From NCBI GenBank assembly GCA_963965975.1, contig OZ014425.1, positions 4,415,501-4,479,500 of the forward strand: a stretch of DNA of 64,000 nucleotides, read 5' to 3'. The notes below the pieces were generated by a model, which saw nothing but the letters and a program-made list of their open reading frames with translations, did no database searches and had not been told where the DNA came from. The translations under genes were made by a program, and so were the position numbers. Of the stretch, positions 51,846 through 64,000 are shown in pieces. Every line of letters starts with the position of its first letter. Position 1 is the first letter of the stretch. This stretch comes from Xestospongia bergquistia. Lineage: Eukaryota > Porifera > Demospongiae > Haplosclerida > Petrosiidae.

Positions 51846-53637
51846 ATGGGACGTCGTGCTGCTAGAAGACGTCGTTTTAAGGCCCAGAAACGTTCTGGTA
51901 GGTGCAGTGATCCTGAAGACCACGATTACGTGAAAAATACGAATAGAACCGAAACCATAGACGAAGATAATAGTGGTTGGGATAGTCTTGATGACCAAAC
52001 TTTATTGGATTATGCCGAAAATGCGGCTGCTAATGATCCATCGACGTTGCTAGATGAAATGGAAGTCACAAGAAGATTATCAGGCTTAAATGTGTCCGCG
52101 ATCGTTGAGTTACCTGAAAGTAGTATAGTGACTAGTGATGTAGAAACTGTCTTTTCAGAATTGCCATCTACCATCTTGTTGGACGATCCTGGCGAGACAG
52201 AGACCCTACCTCGTCTCGAGGAACGATACTGTAGAAAACGGAATTCTAAACGTAACCGGAAACGAACTAAAAAAGTAAAAATATTACCCCCTGAGTTAGA
52301 GGAAGGAGAAAGCATGGCTGAACGCGTTGGGGGAAAGTACAAGAGGGTATCATACGTGTCCAAACTACGTTTCAATCCAATATCTTGGTGTAAGCAGTCT
52401 TCAGTATTGACTGATGATAGCCAGCAAGGGCTGACAACTGAGCCCGATCACACAACAGGACTTGTAGGCCCTAGTGATACTAGTTCTCGTGCTCTGACAG
52501 AGTCTGACTCTCCCACAGTAGACGATATTATTATGTTAGATGAGGCAGGCAGAGAAGATGAAGTTGAAGGTAAGTCAGCATACTTTAATAAGAGAGCAAT
52601 CCAATGCTAATATGATTATTCCCAATTTATCTCCAGGCTTTTCCATCATGGACGCTCACGAGAATTGTACCTTGACTGAACACAATATGGGGCTAGGTAC
52701 CACAGTAGAGTCTTCCACATTAGCCTCTCAGTCTAATAGTGAGAGTGAGTTAACTGAGACCTCAAGTGACAGTGGCTGTGATGGAGACGATGAGGAAAGT
52801 AGTGTAGAGATATCTGGAAGTCTCAAAGTGAGCAGAACTGCCTATACTACTAGCATGAATGCCAATGGATGGTGGGATAATTGTCAGTCAAGTGCTGATG
52901 AAATGTTTGAAGATGAGGTGCATTTTCGGCAGATATTTGCAGGTTCGTTTCCACTCTTAAGCCCAGAGGGACGGAAAGCAGTGAGTTTAAATGTGAAAAC
53001 ACAAATCGGACAGGACAGTGAGTTTAAACATCCTCAATTATGTGGCATTCAAGGGAGAAGAGATAGCCGCAAAATGCGCAAGAAACCTTCCATGTCTTAC
53101 ACTATTACCACACCTCGAGATTTAAGCCAAAGAATCAGTGATTTTATTCAACGTGAGGCAGACATGGAGCTTCATTTGCCAATGTTAAGTCGACCATTAT
53201 GCCGAACTGCATCAAATTTAGCTCAAGCACATTCTTTAGAATGTATGATACATCAGAAAAGACGCCTTCCAGTAGCTGCTCCTTTACTTAAAAAAAACAG
53301 CTCTACACGGTTAGCTAGCAAAGCTGAAATAGAGGCAGTCTTGCGTGATCATCAAAGAGAATTGACTAGTCCTATATTATGGACCAAGAGAACTAAAAAA
53401 CATCCTCGTGTTTTACCTGTACGGGTACCTGTGTCCGCTCTTTGTTGTCAAACTGAATCAATGACAGTTGTGGGCGGGGATGCACCTCCCATTAATGAAC
53501 ATAATATTGGCAACCAGATATTACGTAGTATGGGATGGAAACCTGGATATGGATTAGGGGTTGATGAAAATGGAATACGCCATCCAGTGTTAGCTAACCG
53601 AAGACCAAAGCTTGCTGGTTTAGGATATACTCAATGA
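51846..53637 (+). CDS. GPATCH2: G-patch protein GPATCH2, with R3H-like domain
   Basis: Two exons, 51846-52569 and 52637-53637, 574 residues. The C-terminal G-patch (about residues 529-574) reads NIGNQILRSMGWKPGYGLGV, then RRPKLAGLGY, close to human GPATCH2 (NIGNRMLQNMGWTPGSGLG). The block FRQIFAGSFPLLSPEGRKA matches human FESILTGSFPLMS. GPATCH2 proteins are nuclear and stimulate the helicase DHX15 through the G-patch. The N-terminus is Arg-rich (MGRRAARRRRFKAQKR), followed by acidic stretches. Residues ~405-465 (RISDFIQREADMELHLPMLS, then NLAQAHSLE) fit an R3H-type fold, though the R-x3-H signature reads RTASN, with Asn for His. Copies of the last part of this gene recur downstream as broken fragments. 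Confidence 0.88.
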
Positions 53638-53814
53638 TTTATGTTTTATTATGTTTGTTAATATCTACATAATATATTATTCTCATCTTTTGTTTTTAAT
53701 TAAATAACTTTGTACATTTTACAAAATCTTAATATGATTAAAGACTACTTTCAATGGATTACAGTTACTGAGTTTTAATGTATTCTAAATAGTATGATGA
53801 GTTGTAATCAGTCT

Positions 53815-55671
53815 TCAATCTTCAAATTTTATTTCTATGTATTCTTCTGGGGATAATTTTCCATACTCCAGCTGAAGGTTATTAACTTCAGCAAAGTCAT
53901 CAGGAGTGTATTCATCTGAAGGTTTTTTCTCATCTGTATGTGTATGATTAAATGAGAGAATTACTACTTATTCTATATGGTGGCATTGCTCACTTACTCA
54001 ACAGGCCACATTCTTGGTAGGCATGTGCAACAAGCTCACTGCAGAACAAACTGCTGATGTCTTCATCTTCACTTTTTAGGAATTTTATATAATCCTCACA
54101 GAAATCTAACCCTGCTAGTGCAAGATCAAAGAAGCTCTTTTCATAAAGTCTTCCCTCCAATGTTTTGGTTAACTACATGTAGGTTATTTAGACAATGGAC
54201 CAGTGTGGCTGAATGCTCACTTCCATCATCTTCTTATGAATTGCCTCCCTCTGTTCATCTGTTATACCAACTAGCCTCCTTATAGCTACTTGATCATAGA
54301 AACCACTTGATATCCTTTTTTGTAAAGGAACTATTTCTACTCCTTTATTTATTTTGCCAGTTGTGACATCCATAATACCTAAACAACAAATGATACAGAC
54401 AATTATTAATAGATTCCCTTATAATATTTTTCTTACTAGTAGTATTTGTTTGTGATTCCCACAGCATCAGCACTTTTGTTGCTTTAGGACGGAGGACCTA
54501 TGTAATATCAATATTTTTATAGCCAAGCATGTCATTATTTAAGTTAGACATATTATTTGATGAACAATTTTACATGACCAAAAATTAATATTAAAATCTC
54601 ACTGAGGTAGCTGATGACTTTAATTATGTACTTTCCTTGTGTTCTTGTATATTTGTTACCTAATTTACACTTTTATAATTAAAACTTTAACACAGAAATC
54701 ACATTTGTTACCATTACACTTGTCCATTCAAACTTAGTATGATAACCAAATTTCAAAGACGATATATTAAATTAAACTGCATACAATTATAGCCAAAATA
54801 ATCATTGATATTTTACTTGTTATTAAAAGTGTTGGTTCTCCTTACTATTCCTACATGAGAATAATCAGAAGTGGTAAACATTTTAATGGCCCATCCAGTC
54901 ACACCAACTCCACAAAACAAGACAATATCTCCTGTGTTGAGTGTGTCTTTAATCTGACTATATTTCTTTACGGGTGTATGTCTGGGCACAATACTTCCAC
55001 GTCTATATGAAATAAAATGGACGACATTGAGTGATGCATGCATGCAATACTCCTTACAAAATTTTATTCATTAAAGGTGGCTCATCTCCCTTCATTGGTC
55101 CTTTTTGGGGTGGTGGAACTTTGATGAATATTGGGTCTTCAACAGGCAAGATTGTAGGCCATTTATCGAAGATATCTTTTGCAGATTCACATATGACTCC
55201 TAACTTTTTGTAAAGATAACCCAGATCAAGTATGGTTGCTTTGATGTTACGAATGAAAGGAGTTTCAGCATCTTCGAGAATTTTTAGCTCATCTTTGTTA
55301 TAAGGCTCTTTGTCAATATCATCTATGAGATCCAGTGCAGCTGTTGCTGATATGGGTTTATCATGTTTCAGTCTGGACACAGATGCACGCTTTAAATCTC
55401 CATAAAAAATACGAACTGTTGCTGTAAATGTTGTGAGGTTACGCTTTTTATTAAATTCCTTTGGTGGTTTGGTGACACCTGTTGCAAGAAGAATAGGGAA
55501 GAATTCCTCATTCTCTGAATTATTGATAATCATGCCATAATTAGGTACATCACTATCACCACGATAGAGAGTTACAAGATCTCCTGTTTTGAGACTGTCT
55601 TGAATATCTCCAAAATCAACATCTGTAGATGGTTCTTGTGAAGGGAAGAAGTAACTGAAAAATCCACCCAT
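53815..55671 (-). CDS. Double permuted NlpC/P60 (peptidase C92-like) protein, copy 1
   Basis: Six exons: 55671-55058, 55002-54846, 54497-54437, 54378-54221, 54172-53998 and 53933-53815, 427 residues. The C-terminal domain has the permuted NlpC/P60 order. First LNTGDIVLFCG, then TTSDYSHVGIV with the candidate catalytic His. Then VLMLWES, and much later SSLFCSELVAHAYQECGLL with the candidate Cys, and DEYTPDDFAE. This family (YiiX/C92-like) includes hydrolases or acyltransferases acting on amide or thioester bonds; the substrate here is unknown. The N-terminal domain (exon 1) starts the same way (LKTGDLVTLYRG) but has PNYGMII where the His motif should be, so it looks inactive. Starting at MGGFFSYF gives Gly2 and Ser6, a good N-myristoylation signal. 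A Met two codons upstream also exists. No transmembrane helix. Confidence 0.82.
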
Positions 55672-56749
55672 GATCACTTCATATACTGATTGGTACTAAG
55701 ACATCAAGTGTTGCATTGACTTTTATAGACCTAGTTAACTATTAATATTAATTAATAACTGGTTGTGTTTTTCAAATAATGATATAATGCTCAAATAGGA
55801 AGGCAATATATACATAGGGCAAGGATATACATAGATGTAACAATAGAAACTCCACAAATATATAATTAGTAATAGTAGAGATGTGTTAAAATAATGTACA
55901 TTTAACTGACTTTTAAATTGATTTACTAAGTTTAAATTTTGATATGAGATGGAACAATTAATTGAGCTAGGAAAAAGGAGTTTTAGTATGTGCTTGTGTG
56001 GCATATTAGGGACTTTAAATTAAGAAGAGGAAAGGATCAGAGTGTGTGTGAGAATGACTAAAGAAAGGATACTGCAGATTTAGGACTAAAACATTTGTGA
56101 TAAATCATTTTGTAGAGGAGGATATTTTTTTGAGGTGGTGCTTCAAAATGAGAGTGTTGGGATTTTAAAATGGTCAAGAAGTGTTAGGAGTGGGAGAACC
56201 TGTGATTTGTAGAGTTTAATAAGGACAGAGGTTGAAGAGTTTCCTTGCTTTGGAGCAGATACATTGGATAGTAGTATGTTGATTGGAATTGGCGACTTCA
56301 ATTGGCTTTATATCTTTTTTCATGAAATAAATCACTGACATCAACCATAACAAGCTATTTTCATTTATAGAAATCTGATTGATCATGTATGAAGTGATAA
56401 TGAGCTTTTAAAATATCTGTCTTTCTCTTTTGTTAAATGTCTTATGTAATATAATTATATTTCCTAAACATGCATAATAGTTTCCTTGTGTTAAGATGTT
56501 TATAAACATAAACACATTAGCTGTACAATAAAAACACTTCTACATTGTACAGTGTACAGGTAGTGTTAACTTAGTTTTCCATGTGACTTATATTTGTTAT
56601 ATGAGGAAATCCAGCTAACTATAGAATGACTAGTTTAGGGTCAGTGATCAACACAAGTGTTATGATCATAGTTTATTGGTAGAATAAAGGTGTATAAAGT
56701 TTGTTTATGAAAGGAATGACTTCACTAACTATTTTTATACTACACTTTA
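55672..56749. other. Upstream region of C92-like copy 1
   Basis: Holds the presumed promoter of copy 1 and the tail of unit 1. AT-rich. A minus-strand open frame at 55,735-56,004 recurs in the other units but differs by frame-breaking indels in copy 2, so I do not call it a gene. Confidence 0.55.
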
Positions 56750-56847
56750 GTATGGGATGTGGGTTAGGGGTTGATGAAAATGGAATATGTAATCCAGTTA
56801 TAGCCAACCGAAGACCAAAGCTTGCTGGTTTAGGATATACTCAATGA
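56750..56847 (+). pseudogene. GPATCH2 3'-terminal fragment, unit 2
   Basis: TATGGGATGTGGGTTAGGGG through GGATATACTCAATGA, matching the last ~33 codons of GPATCH2 (about 53,528-53,637) and its 3' flank. Relative to the parent it lacks 12 bases inside the G-patch (the codons for KPGY are gone) and has several substitutions. There is no upstream exon, so it is a broken copy carried along by the segmental duplication. Confidence 0.9.
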
Positions 56848-57024
56848 TTTATGTTTTATTATGTTTGTTAATATCTACATAATATATTATTCTCATCTTT
56901 TGTTTTTAATTAAATAACTTTGTACATTTTACAAAATCTTAATATGATTAAAGACTACTTTCAATGGATTACAGTTACTGAGTTTTAATGTATTCTAAAT
57001 AGTATGATGAGTTGTAATCAGTCT

Positions 57025-58873
57025 TCAATCTTCAAATTTTATTTCTATGTATTCTTCCGGGGCCAATTTTCCATACTCCAGCTGAAGGTTACGAGCTTCA
57101 CCGAAGTCATCAGGAGTGTATTCATCTGAAGATGTTTTCTCATCTGTATGTGCATGATTAAATGAGAGAATTACTACTTATTCTATATGGTGGCATTGCT
57201 CACTTACTCAACAGGCCACATTCTTGGTAGGCATGTGCAACAAGCTCACTGCAGAACAAACTGCTGATGTCTTCATCTTCACTTTTTAGGAATTTTATAT
57301 AATCCTCACAGAAATCTAACCCCGATAGTGTAAGATCAAACATGCTCTTTTCATATTGTATTCCCTCCAATGTTTGGGTTAACTACATGTAGGTTATTTA
57401 GACAATGAACCAGTGTGGCTAAATACTCACTTCCATCATCTTCTTATGAATTGTCTCCCTCTGTTCATCTGTTATATCAACAAGCCTCCTTATAGCTACT
57501 TGATCATAGAAACCACTAAATATCATTTTTTGTAAAGGAACTATTTCTACTCCTTTGTTTATTTTGCCAGTTGTGACATCCACAATACCTAAACAACAAA
57601 TGATACAGACAATTATTAATAGATTCCCTTATAATATTTTTCTTACTAGTAGTATTTGTTTGTGATTCCCACAGCATCAGCACTTTTGTTGCTTTAGGAC
57701 GGAGGACCTATGTAATATCAATATTTCTATAGCCAAGCATGTCATTATTTAAGTTAGACATATTATTTGATGAACAATTTTACATGACCAAAAATTAATA
57801 TTAAAATCTCACTGAGGTAGCTGATGACTTTAATTATGTACTTTCCTTGTGTTCTTGTATATTTGTTATCTAATTTACACTTTTATAATTAAAACTTTAA
57901 CACAGAAATCACATTTGTTACCATTACATTTGTCCATTCAAACTTAGTATGATAACCAAGACCATAAATTAAATTAAACTGCATACAATTATAGCCAAAA
58001 TAATCATTGATATTTTACTTGTTATTAAAAGTGTTGGTTCTCCTTACCATTCCTACATGAGAATATTCTGAATTGGTAAACATTTTAATGCCCCATCCAA
58101 TTGCATCAACTCCACAAAACAAGACAATATCTCCTGTGTTGAGTGTGTCTTTAATCTGACTATATTTCTTTACGGGTGTATGTCTGGGCACAATACTTCC
58201 ACGTCTATATGAAATAAAATGGACGACATTGAGTGATACATGCATGCAATACTCCTTACAAAATTTTATTCATTAAAGGTGGCTCATCTCCCTTCATTGA
58301 TCCTTTTTGGGGTGGTGGAACTTTGATGAATATTGGGTCTTCAACAGGCAAGATTGTAGGCCATTTATCGAAGATATCTTTTGCAGATTCACTTATGACT
58401 CCTAACTTTTTGTAAAGATAACCCAGATCAAGTATGGTTGCTTTGATGTTACGAATATGAGGAGTTTCAGCATCTTCGAGAATTTTCAGCTCATCTTTGT
58501 TATAAGGCTCTTTGTCAATATCATCTATGAGATCCAGTGCAGCTGTTGCTGATATGGGTTTATCATGTTTCAGTCTGGACACAGATGCACGCTTTAAATC
58601 TCCATAAAAAATACGAACTGTTGCTGTAAATGTTGTGAGGTTACGCTTTTTATTAAATTCCTTTGGTGGTTTGGTGACACCTGTTGCAAGAAGAATAGGG
58701 AAGAATTCCTCATTCTCTGAATTATTGATAATCATGCCATAATTAGGTACATCACTATCACCACGATAGAGAGTTACAAGATCTCCTGTTTTGAGACTGT
58801 CTTGAATATCTCCAAAATCAACATCTGTAGATGGTTCTTGTGAAGGGAAGAAGTAACTGAAAAATCCACCCAT
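57025..58873 (-). CDS. Double permuted NlpC/P60 (C92-like) protein, copy 2
   Basis: Same six-exon layout as copy 1 with all splice sites intact and no frameshift, start MGGFFSYF at 58873 and stop TGA at 57025-57027. The C-terminal domain keeps NSEYSHVGMV (His) and LFCSELVAHAYQECG (Cys). Differences from copy 1 include HIRN for FIRN, GSMKG for GPMKG, VISES for VICES, and GVDAIGWGIKMFTNSE for GVGVTGWAIKMFTTSD. The Cys-to-Ser change (VISES) falls in the degenerate N-terminal domain, near where its catalytic Cys would be. Changes cluster in the loop before the His motif, which may be under different selection. Confidence 0.82.
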
Positions 58874-60604
58874 GATCACTTCATATAGTGATTGGTACTA
58901 AGACATCAAGTGTTGCATTGACTTTTATAGACCTAGTTAACTATTAATATTAATTAATAACTGGTTGTGTTTTTCAAATAATGATATAATGCTCAAATAG
59001 GAAGGCAATATATACATAGGGCAAGGAATATATACATAGATGTAACAATAGAAACTCCACAAATATATAATTAGTAATAGTAGAGATATGTTAAAATAAT
59101 GTACATTTAACTGACTTTTAAATTGATTTACTAAGTTTAAATTTTTGATATGAGATGGAAACAATTCCATAAGTTAATTGAGTTAGCTAGGAAAAAGGAG
59201 TTATATAGTATGTGCTTGTGTGGTATATTGGGGACTTTAAATTAAGAAGAGGAAAAGGATCAGAGTGTGTGTAAGAATGACTGAAGAAAGGATACTGCAG
59301 ATTTAGGACTAAAACTGTGATAAATCATTTTGTAGAGGAGGATTATTTTTGAGGTGGTACATCGAAACGAGAGTGTTGTGATTTTAAAATGGTCAAGAAG
59401 TGTTAGGAGTGGGAGAACCTGTGATTTGTAGAGTTTAATAAGGACAGAGGTTGAAGAGTTTCTTTGCTTTGGACCAGATAAATTGGATGTGTGGAGACCA
59501 TGAAAGATTTGAAGTTAGTATTATTCCAAGATATTTGTAAGATGAAACTTGTTGAAGGCTACAACCATTGAGATATAAAAATGGTAAGGAAGTAACAAAA
59601 GAGTAAGATTTATAATATATTGATCATATATTTTGTTTTAGACGTTATATACATTAACTTTTACACAATAGTAGCATGTTGATTGGAATTATACAATTAT
59701 AGTTCCTAAATTAATATAACATTGTATAATAATTTCCTTGTGTTAAGATATTTACAAACATAAGCACATTAGCTGTACAATAAAAACACTTCTACATTAT
59801 ATAGCTAGTGTTAACTTAGTTTTCCATGTGACTTATATTTGTTATATGAGGAAATCCAGCTAACTATAGAATGAGTAGTTTAGGGTCAGTGATCAACACA
59901 ACTGACTACTGGTAGCTACTACACTGGCCAGCTTCACCCCCAGACAGAGAGGCAGTAAGAACTGTGTAATACCTTTTAATTAAAAATTCATGATCACATA
60001 ATAATATAAGAGCCTACACATACATGAATTGATAAAGAGCTTTCCAAATGTTATCCTTGTTATTGCTTAATCCTATCTAATAATGCACACACAGCATTTC
60101 CTATACATGCATAATAGTTTCCTTGTGTTAGGATGTTTATAAACATTAGCACATTAGTTGTGCAATAAAAACACTTCTACATTGTACAGGTAGTGTTAAC
60201 TTAGTTGATCATGTGATTTATATTTGTTATATTAGGAAATCTAGCTAATTATAGAATGACTAGTTTAGAGTCAGTGATCAACACAAGTGGCCTCTCCCAC
60301 AACTACATCAACTCATTATTAGGTTTGTTTAGTTGTCTTTACTAGTTTATTTTGCAGTTACTATAACTAGATAGCACATCCATAGCCTGATTTCTAAGCC
60401 CAAATCCTCATACTCATACTACATTTTGTACTATTGATTATTCAATTATAGTTATTGTTATTTGAATAAATGTCATCATGATAATTTAGATTGTCCTTTC
60501 TTCTCCAGAGTCCTTGAGTTCTTCTGACATTCAGTTCAGACCCTCTTAAGAGATTAAAGATACTGAACAACATTGACTACCACCTCCTGCTGAAAATCTG
60601 TTGT
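58874..60604. other. Upstream region of C92-like copy 2
   Basis: About 1.7 kb. Contains a ~190-bp segment (about 59,487-59,680) absent from units 1 and 3, and the ~380-bp internal duplication. No gene seen. Confidence 0.55.
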
Positions 60605-60609
60605 GTTCT

Positions 60610-60724
60610 CTCTTTGTTGTCAAACTGAATCAATGACAGTTGTGGGTGGGGATGCACCTGCTATTAATATTGGCAACCAGATATTACGTAGTATGGGATG
60701 TGGGTTAGGGGGTATACTCAATGA
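60610..60724 (+). pseudogene. GPATCH2 3'-terminal fragment, unit 3
   Basis: Begins further upstream in GPATCH2 than the unit 2 fragment (CTTTGTTGTCAAACTGAATC, parent about 53,440) but lacks six bases after CTATTAAT, the same 12 bases in the G-patch, and most of the last codons (GTTAGGGG runs straight into GTATACTCAATGA). Clearly non-functional. Confidence 0.9.
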
Positions 60725-60904
60725 TTATGTTTTATTATTATGTTTGTTAATATCTACATAATATATTATTCTTATCTTTTGATTTTAATTAAAGAACTTT
60801 GTACATTTTTACAAAATCTTAATATGATTAAAGACTACTTTCAATGGATTATAATTACTGAGTTTTAATGTATTCTAAATAGTATGATGAGTTGTAATCA
60901 GTCT

Positions 60905-62738
60905 TCAATCTTCAAATTTTATTTCTATGTATTCTTCTGGGGATAATTTTCCATACTCCAGCTGAAGGTTATTAACTTCAGCAAAGTCATCAGGAGTGTA
61001 TTCATCTGAAGGTTTTTTCTCATCTGTATGTGTATGATTAAATGAGAGAATTACTACTTATTCTATATGGTGGTATTGCTCACTTACTCAACAGGCCACA
61101 TTCTTGGTAGGCATGTGCAACAAGCTCACTGCAGAACAAACTGCTGATGTCTTCATCTTCACTTTTTAGGAATGTTATATATTCCTCACAGAAATCAAAT
61201 CCCATTTGTGCAAGATCAAACATGCTCTTTTCATATTGTATTCCCTCCAATGTTTGGGTTAACTACATGTAGGTTATTTAGACAATGAACCAGTGTGGCT
61301 AAATACTCACTTCCATCATCTTCTTATGAACTTTCTCCCTCTGTTCATCTGTTATATCAACAAGCCTCCTTATAGCTACTTGATCATAGAAACCACTCAA
61401 TATCATTTTTTGTAAAGGAACTATTTCTACTCCTTTATTTATTTTGCCAGTTGTGACATCCACAATACCTAAACAACAAATGATACAGACAATTATTAAT
61501 AGATTCCCTTATAATATTTTTCTTACTAGTAGGATTTGTTTGTGATTCCCACAGCATCAGCACTTTTGTTGCTTTAGGACGGAGGACCTATGTAATATCA
61601 ATATTTCTATAGCCAAGCATGTCATTATTTAAATTAACACAATTTTACATTAGCAAAAATTAATATTAAAATCTTAGTGAGGTAGCTGATGACTTTAATT
61701 ATGTACTTTCCTTGTGTTCTTGTATATTTGTTACCTAATTTACACTTTTATAATTAAAACTTTAACACAGAAATCACATTTGTTACCATTACACTTGTCC
61801 ATTCAAACTTAGTGTGATAACCAAGACCATAAATTAAATTAAACTGCATACAATTACAGCCAAAATAATCATTGATATTTTACTTGTTATTAAAAGTGTT
61901 GGTTCTTCTCACCATTCCTATATGAGAATATTCTGAAGTGGTAAACATTTTAATGCTCCATCCAATTGCATCAACTCCACAAAACAAGACAATATCTCCT
62001 GTGTTGAGTGTGTCTTTAATCTGACTATATTTCTTTACGGGTGTATGTCTGGGCACAATACTTCCACGTCTATATGAAATAAAATGGACGACATTGAGTG
62101 ATGCATGCATGCAATACTCCTTACAAAATTTTATTCATTAAAGGTGGCTCATCTCCCTTCATTGGTCCTTTTTGGGGTGGTGGAACTTTGATGAATATTG
62201 GGTCTTCAACAGGCAAGATTGTAGGCCATTTATCGAAGATATCTTTTGCAGATTCACATATGACTCCTAACTTTTTGTAAAGATAACCCAGATCAAGTAT
62301 GGTTGCTTTGATGTTACGAATATGAGGAGTTTCAGCATCTTCGAGAATTTTCAGCTCATCTTTGTTATAAGGCTCTTTGTCAATATCATCTATGAGATCC
62401 AGTGCAGCTGTTGCTGATATGGGTTTATCATGTTTCAGTCTGGACACAGTTGCACGCTTTAAATCTCCATAAAAAATACGAACTGTTGCTGTAAATGTTG
62501 TGAGGTTACGCTTTTTATTAAATTCCTTTGGTGGTTTGGTGACACCTGTTGCAAGAAGAATAGGGAAGAATTCCTCATTCTCTGAATTATTGATAATCAT
62601 GCCATAATTAGGTACATCACTATCACCACGATAGAGAGTTACAAGATCTCCTGTTTTGAGACTGTCTTGAATATCTCCAAAAACAAAATCTGTAGATGGT
62701 TCTTGTGAAGTGAAGAAGTAACTGAAAAATCCACCCAT
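60905..62738 (-). CDS. Double permuted NlpC/P60 (C92-like) protein, copy 3
   Basis: Same six-exon layout, start MGGFFSYFFTSQ at 62738 (an in-frame Met 15 codons upstream exists only in this copy) and stop TGA at 60905-60907. All splice sites intact; the exon 2 donor is GTGAGA instead of GTAAGG. His motif TTSEYSHIGMV and Cys motif LFCSELVAHAYQECG are kept. The sequence is a mosaic: HIRN and GVDAIGW as in copy 2, VICES and GPMKG as in copy 1. Unique changes are FFTSQ, STDFVFGD and KRATVSR. Confidence 0.82.
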
Positions 62739-64000
62739 GATCACTTCATATACTGATTGGTACTTAGACATCAAGTGTTGCATTGACTTTTATATACCTA
62801 GTTAACTATTAATATTAATTAATAACTGGTTTTGTTTTTCAAATAATGATATAATGCTCAAATAGGAAGGCAATATATACATAGGACAAGAAATATATAC
62901 ATAGATGTAACAATAGAAACTCCACAAATATACAATTAGTAATAGTAGAGATGTGTTAAAATAATGTACATTTAACTGACTTTTAAATTGATTTACTAAG
63001 TTTAAATTTTGATATGAGATGGAACAATTAATTGAGCTAGGAAAAAGGAGTTTTAGTATGTGCTTGTGTGGCATATTGGGGACTTTAAATTAAGAGGAGA
63101 AAAAGGATCAGAGTGTGTGTGAGAATGACTAAAGAAAGGATACTGCAGATTTAGGACTAAAACATTTGTGATAAATCATTTTGTAGAGGAGGATATTTTT
63201 TTGAGGTGGTACATCAAAATGAGAGTGTTGGGATTTTAAAATGGTCAAGAAGTGTTAGGAGTGGGAGAACCTGTGATTTGTAGAGTTTAATAAGGACAGA
63301 AGTTGAAGAGTTTCCTTGCTTTGGAGCAGATACATTGGATAGTAGTATGTTGATTGGAATTGGCTACTTCAATTGGCTTTATATCTTTTTTCATGAAATA
63401 AATCACTGACATCAACCATAACAAGCTATTTTCATTTATAGAAATCTGATTGATCATGTATAAAGTGATAATGAGCTTTTAAAATATCTGTCTCTCTTTT
63501 GTTAAATGTCTTATGTAATATAATTATATTTCCTAAACATGCATAATAGTTTCCTTGTGTTAAGATGTTTACAAACATAAACACATTAGCTGTACAATAA
63601 AAACACTTCTACATTGTATAGTTAGTGTTAACTTAGTTTTCCATGTGACTTATATTTGTTATATGAGGAAATCCAGCTAACTATAGAATGAGTAGTTTAA
63701 GTCAGTGATCAACACAACTCACTACTGGTAGCTACTACACTGGCCAGCTTCACCTGCCAGGCAGACAGGCAGTAAGAACTGTGTAATACCTTTTAATTTA
63801 AAATTCATGATCACATAATAATATAAGAGCCTACACATATATGAATTGATAAAGAGCTTTCCAAATATTATCCTTCTCATTGCTTAATCCTATCTAATAA
63901 TGCACACACAGCATTTCCTATACATGCATAATAGTTTCCTTGTGTTAGGATGCTTTACAAACATAAGCACATTAACTGTGAAATAAAAACACATCTACAT
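62739..64000. other. Upstream region of C92-like copy 3, open at window edge
   Basis: Closely similar to the region upstream of copy 1 up to about 63,500, then to unit 2's duplicated block. Similarity continues to the last base, so further repeat units may follow beyond the window. Confidence 0.6.

Follow-up and report, generated by a model that had tools for sequence, protein, structure and literature searches.

Introduction

To our knowledge, the YaeF/YiiX-like permuted NlpC/P60 enzymes (PF05708, MEROPS C92; YiiX 2if6, BcPPNE 3kw0) are poorly understood, even in bacteria. Their catalytic His, Glu, Tyr and Cys are defined in passages of PMC3142127. Permuted members act on or bind lipids, as far as the relevant sections of PMC3142127 and PMC10318531 describe them; the exception is the C97 (PPPDE) group, described in a section of PMC10318531 as deubiquitinases/desumoylases. 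LnsA of Staphylococcus, a protein of 189 residues, works with LnsB in lipoprotein N-acylation (PMC7387801). Here we describe tandem C92-type genes in a 64,000-nucleotide stretch of the Xestospongia bergquistia genome (OZ014425.1, positions 4,415,501–4,479,500; hereafter the window).

Three tandem genes encode two-domain proteins

Three minus-strand genes, A, B and C, are located at 53815–62738, and spliced translation of the six exons of each yields a protein of 427 residues. Gene A (53815–55671) consists of exons 55671–55058, 55002–54846, 54497–54437, 54378–54221, 54172–53998 and 53933–53815, which form an open spliced frame. Gene B (57025–58873) comprises 58873–58260, 58204–58048, 57707–57647, 57588–57431, 57382–57208 and 57143–57025, and gene C (60905–62738) comprises 62738–62125, 62069–61913, 61587–61527, 61468–61311, 61262–61088 and 61023–60905. 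Exon lengths are identical across the three genes (614, 157, 61, 158, 175 and 119), and all introns are GT-AG. Exon 1 (55058–55671 in A, 58260–58873 in B, 62125–62738 in C) encodes the N-terminal half, i.e., residues 1–204 and part of 205, with the MGGFFS start and a C92-like putative pseudo-domain. Exons 2–6 (53815–55002, 57025–58204 and 60905–62069, respectively) encode the C-terminal half, the predicted catalytic C92 domain with His254, Glu271, Tyr340 and Cys374 in gene A. The motifs (N/K)TGD(I/L)V, YSHVG or YSHIG followed by FCSEL in the C half, and PNYGMII in the N half were confirmed in genes A–C, as the original prediction had listed them; the six-exon structures likewise agree with its view that one exon holds the whole N domain and five the active one.

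Self-BLAST of the window matched 53545–56269 to 56755–59488 at 96.0% and 53623–56656 to 60710–63717 at 95.9%. This identity of about 96% across 2.7–3.0 kb is the basis on which the proposed expansion by local duplication stands. On the plus strand, the 3' end of an open frame at 52540–53637 encodes a G-patch domain (PF01585, E 2.7e-14), and truncated copies of this end are found next to genes B and C (56755–56847 and 60602–60700).

The genome also holds older intact paralogs and numerous broken relatives

Just beyond the window, at C15:4481597, lies an older tandem copy, the fourth (D), with 60% identity across most of exon 1. Two further intact paralogs, C2 and C6, are distant. These three older relatives have the same architecture as A–C and bring the intact genes to six; many broken copies occur elsewhere in the genome. 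The fourth tandem copy, the distant paralogs and the broken copies had all been missed earlier. We also looked at mid-chromosome repeats for which a viral nature was considered, and the few kb around them contain simple repeats along with broken copies of the C2-type gene. A genome-wide PF05708 profile search gave no match, probably because the exons are short, whereas a search with protein queries did find relatives.

Genes A–C might be recent, largely redundant duplicates that drift to pseudogenes, like many of the other genome copies. In line with this, dN/dS among A–C is about 1 in exons 2–6, and all 17 further aligned loci were partial or had stops or frame breaks. However, open frames, splice sites and all four catalytic residues are intact in A, B and C, and in the deeper pairs, between older paralogs, both domains are under purifying selection. 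We regard ongoing decay of A–C as rather unlikely.

An MGxxx[S/T] start is an N-myristoylation motif. It is present in all six intact genes, in four distinct sequences, which supports the likely myristoyl start predicted from A–C. In five genes no in-frame ATG precedes it within the open stretch; gene C has two such ATGs upstream.

The C-terminal domain retains the C92 catalytic residues

The original prediction had proposed an HMM search of the spliced proteins against the C92 profile. In this search, the C-terminal half of gene A was assigned to Peptidase_C92 (PF05708, E 2e-7) with 31.6 bits for the whole protein and 34.7 bits for the domain alone, above the curated Pfam cut-off of 27 bits. 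All four distinct paralog C domains matched PF05708 at E up to 10, the best at 2.3e-8. His254, Glu271, Tyr340 and Cys374 were kept in permuted order in six of six C domains in three MAFFT modes; the description of this domain as live-looking is supported. In PHROGs, 4/4 C domains matched phrog_1128 (E 6.2e-15), named enoyl-CoA hydratase/carnitine racemase-like; we presume that this name stands for a family that is longer or wrongly named. The C domain is probably a working, bacteria- and phage-like enzyme domain of the lipid type.

Antibacterial or peptidoglycan/protein amidase activity, i.e., a role as immune effector instead of lipid enzyme, appears very improbable to us. A precedent exists in a tick that has put a Tae2-like bacterial amidase from the wider NlpC/P60 cluster to its own use against microbes of the skin (described in part of PMC10318531), and one phage relative (L094) follows an endolysin-like gene. 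Yet a start of the myristoyl type suggests a cytosolic protein, inspection by eye showed no secretion signal, and the lipid-related functions given for permuted members other than C97 in sections of PMC3142127 and PMC10318531 also speak against an amidase.

The predicted catalytic domain resembles bacterial and phage proteins

Bacterial and phage proteins share the conserved motifs of the C domain and reach up to 46% identity with it over most of its length. In a midpoint-rooted tree the paralogs formed one clade (100/99) among the bacterial and phage rows, with no supported sister. The search for a donor, in which the branch from the animal clade to its neighbours was supported 89/15, did not identify one, and tblastn of an annotated phage collection with the C domain gave no match at 1e-5. 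Among 51 distinct bacterial and phage C92 proteins, 48 are below 300 residues and therefore too short to hold two such domains; the other three have 780–920 residues. A literature query combining 'Amphimedon queenslandica' and 'Peptidase C92' was without match, and the terms looked for were absent from the main text of PMC4784904 on prokaryotic genes in this sponge.

That the gene is old, vertically inherited and eukaryotic, and was not acquired from bacteria or phage, is a serious possibility, to which we give somewhat less than even weight. The multi-intron structure is common to the paralogs, a section of PMC3142127 reports that BcPPNE has a homolog in Plasmodium, and the eukaryotic side of our comparison consisted of the window's own genome. 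Against vertical descent stand the level of identity to bacterial and phage proteins and the position of the paralog clade among them, although its sister is unsupported and the root a midpoint.

A diverged C92 domain forms the N-terminal half

Aligned with C92 by hhalign, the N half scored 60.7 and 65.5, and column shuffles (60 each) reached at most 24.6 and 25.2. As these scores are far above every shuffle and the tandem units are about 96% identical, chance is excluded for both the N/C relationship and the gene cluster. By profile-profile homology the N half is clearly recognizable as a diverged C92 domain, and its predicted fold is of the permuted papain-like type; the proposed double permuted NlpC/P60 architecture is supported. 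PF05708 itself matched none of the four distinct N domains at E up to 10, where weak, unrelated matches to SH3_CYT4 (0.01) and DUF5866 (0.035) were the sole ones. A PDB profile search gave chance-level matches only (1y82, unrelated, E 0.092; MepS, 0.16; Spr, 0.17). In the printed MepS alignment, His-Val-Gly of MepS is opposite Asn-Tyr-Gly of the N domain. An N-domain pattern scan of viral contigs returned 86 matches, no relative among them.

In the MAFFT alignments, the N domains of the six genes keep His in one, Glu in none, Cys in two and Tyr in all six. The variable Cys of VICES/VISES (residue 161) had been taken as the active-site position, and here the original prediction must be corrected: two profile-profile alignments and three MAFFT modes place the equivalent in the preceding helix, where the column holds Thr146 in A, B and C, Ala in D and Cys in C2 and C6, so that Thr146 is the likely counterpart. 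The alignments disagree in part, as another MAFFT alignment leaves the His and Cys columns empty for the N domain and one of the two profile-profile alignments leaves its His segment out of register.

The N domain may be no pseudo-enzyme in general, and instead a second, perhaps different active site in some paralogs that was lost in others, including A–C. C2 keeps His, Cys and Tyr at aligned positions, its acidic residue being gone, and C6 keeps Cys and Tyr; LRAT mutagenesis, in a passage of PMC3142127, suggests that the third residue may be dispensable. We nevertheless judge a second active site decidedly unlikely, given that the Glu position is non-acidic in 6/6 N domains, that A–D lack both His and Cys, and that the N domain lacks some 12 residues that separate the TGD strand from the His, a segment that forms a helix in the structure model made of a bacterial homolog 44% identical to the C domain. 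The N domain is degenerate, as its description as dead-looking implied, but not uniformly dead, as C2 illustrates. In A–D it appears to be a homolog of the C92 fold and not an active member.

Discussion

With slight preference over its negation, we propose that these genes encode a myristoylated, membrane-tethered C92 lipid acyl-hydrolase or acyl-transferase of prokaryote-like type with a regulatory pseudo-domain. An N-terminal myristoyl group would tether the cytosolic enzyme to membranes, where the YiiX-like C domain would act on membrane lipids or lipidated proteins, attacking their ester or amide bonds to fatty-acyl groups via a Cys374 thioester, assisted by His254, Glu271 and Tyr340. The N domain, a presumed duplicate of the same fold whose His, Glu and Cys were lost in A–D, may have been retained for regulation, docking or fold stability. 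In the animal lineage, the catalytic domain, of prokaryote- or phage-like type, would have been doubled, anchored and recently amplified in tandem. The furthest-reaching version is unlikely in our estimate: a C92 enzyme from bacteria or phages would have been taken up by an animal lineage and duplicated within one protein, one half then becoming an internal regulator of pseudo-enzyme type, while myristoylation fixed the protein to the inner face of membranes. Lipid-modifying enzymes of a new family, with roles in signalling or defence, would be the result.

The N domains range from retention of both His and Cys, through Cys only, to loss of both, a natural series for studying the control of an active domain by its degenerate counterpart. 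The genes are also a candidate case of animals having domesticated an enzyme from bacteria or phages.

Among known systems, LRAT/HRASLS acyltransferase-phospholipases (H-REV107, AdPLA) have His as third catalytic residue (stated in part of PMC10318531), in contrast to Glu in the C domains described here, which thus lack the Cys-His-His triad of the LRAT family and gave no PF04970 match at E up to 10. The genome holds a separate LRAT-family match. LnsA, likened here by description only (PMC7387801), has the permuted NlpC/P60 superfamily and acyl chemistry on a lipidated protein in common with our proposal, but is bacterial. Bacterial and phage C92 proteins (e.g., L057, L058 Entotheonella, L088) carry the same motifs as the C domain. 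With the YaeF/YiiX-like enzymes, the C domain shares the permuted order, the four catalytic residues and, for gene A, the Pfam match, and the N domain the predicted fold; the sponge proteins differ in having two domains per protein, a degenerate N domain, a myristoylation-type start and introns. To call this an undescribed system was too strong: the enzyme family is known, and new is its unusual double-domain, likely anchored eukaryotic arrangement.

Three tandem genes combine a C92 domain with a diverged related half

The genome (G000) comprises 146.5 Mb in 21 contigs, and the window, on contig C15, contains eukaryotic genes, e.g., for a sperm microtubule inner protein and a nucleotide-sugar transporter, as found in a Pfam scan of open frames (matches in five of eight scanned). 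Genes A (53815-55671), B (57025-58873) and C (60905-62738) lie on the minus strand. As the original prediction had it, they form a tandem of three 427-residue proteins: each gene was spliced from six exons with GT-AG introns, exon lengths are identical across the three, and the tandem units containing them are about 96% identical. The units of B and C also carry the truncated 3' end of a neighbouring G-patch gene.

The C-terminal domain was confirmed as permuted NlpC/P60 (C92), since gene A exceeded the PF05708 cut-off (E 2e-7). Gene A also matched NCBIfam YiiX (E 9.6e-10, far under that model's equivalog cut-off). A profile built from four C domains (A and the paralogs D, C2 and C6) matched the solved structures 3kw0 (BcPPNE, E 1.3e-5) and 2if6 (YiiX, E 5.5e-5); a polymerase subunit, the third match, was rejected as chance (E 0.91). 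PHROGs assigns the domain a different name, phrog_1128. The residues His254, Glu271, Tyr340 and Cys374 (gene A numbering) are kept in all six C domains in MAFFT alignments. The architecture is real, coherent and unusual; the enzyme family is already known, and we describe a known family in an unusual architecture rather than the proposed undescribed system.

Intact paralogs share the protein start

A protein search of G000 gave at least 106 matches, of which the six intact genes and loci L034-L050 were inspected singly, with exon models from a custom homology-guided aligner. Besides A-C, intact genes are D (C15, 4.482 Mb; 446 aa, six exons), the C2 gene (contig C2, 124 kb; 445 aa, five exons) and the C6 gene (contig C6, 8.82 Mb; 526 aa, five exons), each with its N domain contained in a single exon. 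Every one of the 17 other aligned loci was partial or had stops or frame breaks.

All six intact genes start with the myristoylation-type pattern MGxxx[S/T] (MGGFFS, MGNFLS, MGNKCT or MGNKNS), found in 9 of 1959 ATG hexapeptides of the window, including the three from A-C themselves. In A, B, D, C2 and C6, no earlier ATG precedes its Met within the open stretch; gene C has two in-frame ATGs upstream. N-myristoyltransferase had one match in the genome.

Copies of the C2/C6-type gene (L032, L033, L035-L042, L044-L047, L049) lie about 1-165 kb from the ends of C2-C10, C12 and C13, looking subtelomeric; among those aligned, only the C2 and C6 genes are intact, the rest being partial or broken. On C4, C5, C6, C7, C10, C11, C13 and C15 (L015-L030 sampled), and on C14 by protein match only, there are repeated copies of a 3.5 kb segment that contains a broken gene of the C2 type; rows spanning the segment are 95-100% identical. 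It forms a single cluster per contig, roughly between one third and two thirds of the way along those contigs whose length was known. Neighbouring copies are mostly about 65-225 kb apart, a few gaps being wider or narrower. They make up giant repeats whose location is possibly pericentromeric.

The N domain has lost active-site residues to different degrees

Active-site positions of the N domain were read from three MAFFT modes (34/39 proteins plus 12 domains), which at Glu disagree by a single column. In the order A, B, C, D, C2, C6, the His position holds N, N, N, N, H, N and the Cys position T, T, T, A, C, C; Tyr is present in all six, and the Glu position is acidic in none. One hhalign alignment concurs on His, Tyr and Cys, a second on Tyr and Cys only, with its His segment out of register, and another MAFFT alignment leaves the His and Cys columns blank. 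Because of these disagreements, the equivalence of Asn44 to the active-site His and of Thr146 to the active-site Cys is the best supported, though not certain. The VICES/VISES cysteine, initially taken as a variable active-site Cys, is residue 161, 15 residues past the aligned Thr146, and had to be discarded in this role. A dead-looking domain fits A-D, where the loss is complete; it is partial in C6, and in C2 the acidic residue alone is missing.

By Nei-Gojobori, dN/dS was 0.41 (C2/C6), 0.39 (A/D) and 0.42 (B/D) in the N domain, and 0.19, 0.35 and 0.39, respectively, in the C domain; three more distant pairs near saturation were set aside. Among A-C, exon 1 is nearly invariant: any two copies differ there by 0-2 synonymous and 4-6 nonsynonymous changes, which does not suffice to compute a ratio. 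Divergence is greater in exons 2-6, where dN is near dS, and residues 205-427 hold 31 of the 38 variable residues. As dS is lower in exon 1, and also in the N versus the C part of C2/C6 (0.30 vs 0.66), this hints at gene conversion, or recent unequal exchange among A-C. Residues 238-257 around the catalytic His, a region picked post hoc, hold 8 of the 38 and are possibly the substrate pocket; they are encoded in exon 2 (54846-55002 in A, 58048-58204 in B, 61913-62069 in C).

Relatives occur in bacteria and phages

C domain relatives at 24-46% identity were found at 32 loci in genome_contigs and 33 in viral_contigs, several of the latter mutually identical. Read as open frames from the first ATG or else the match start, 66 loci gave 51 distinct sequences, 48 of them below 300 residues and three (L084-L086) of 780-920. 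In L058, L095, L116 and L120, 30-65 residues precede the match; L074 is truncated by its contig end.

In a midpoint-rooted tree (rooted for display) of these 51 and four animal C domains, with no other eukaryotes, the animal domains fall among rows from bacteria and phages as a single clade (support 100/99), and no sister group of this clade was supported among the 55 rows. With this sampling, transfer is plausible.

Ten neighbours were scanned at four loci. At L094 (2546-6105), the phage C92 gene comes directly after a gene for an endolysin-like peptidase, and a pair encoding a DNA-binding protein and a terminase lies two genes further on, an arrangement that resembles a lysis cassette. The same C92 protein occurs in Pacearchaeota-titled genome records and viral contigs (L059, L060, L075, L093); since L075 and L093 agree in contig size and range, a viral contig seems to have been placed in the archaeal bin.

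Comparison with characterized permuted NlpC/P60 proteins

Tox-Act1, a permuted NlpC/P60 protein, has phospholipase activity according to PMC12994826; for TseH, the mass-spectrometry assay used for Tox-Act1 gave none there, and a fluorescence assay gave some. LnsA is linked in PMC7387801 to lipoprotein N-acylation, its catalytic role being unproven. PMC10318531 terms C92 proteins lipid amidases and describes the permuted family C97 as deubiquitinases/desumoylases. In view of these functions, of those given for YiiX below and of the myristoyl-type start, we favour a putative acyl enzyme that would act on membrane lipids or lipoproteins at the cytosolic face. The N domain, conserved without the catalytic set, may be regulatory. 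For YiiX, PMC3142127 describes a fatty acid in the pocket and proposes fatty-acyl amide cleavage; the catalytic set given there for BcPPNE and YiiX, His, Glu, Tyr and Cys, comprises the same four residues as the sponge C domains.
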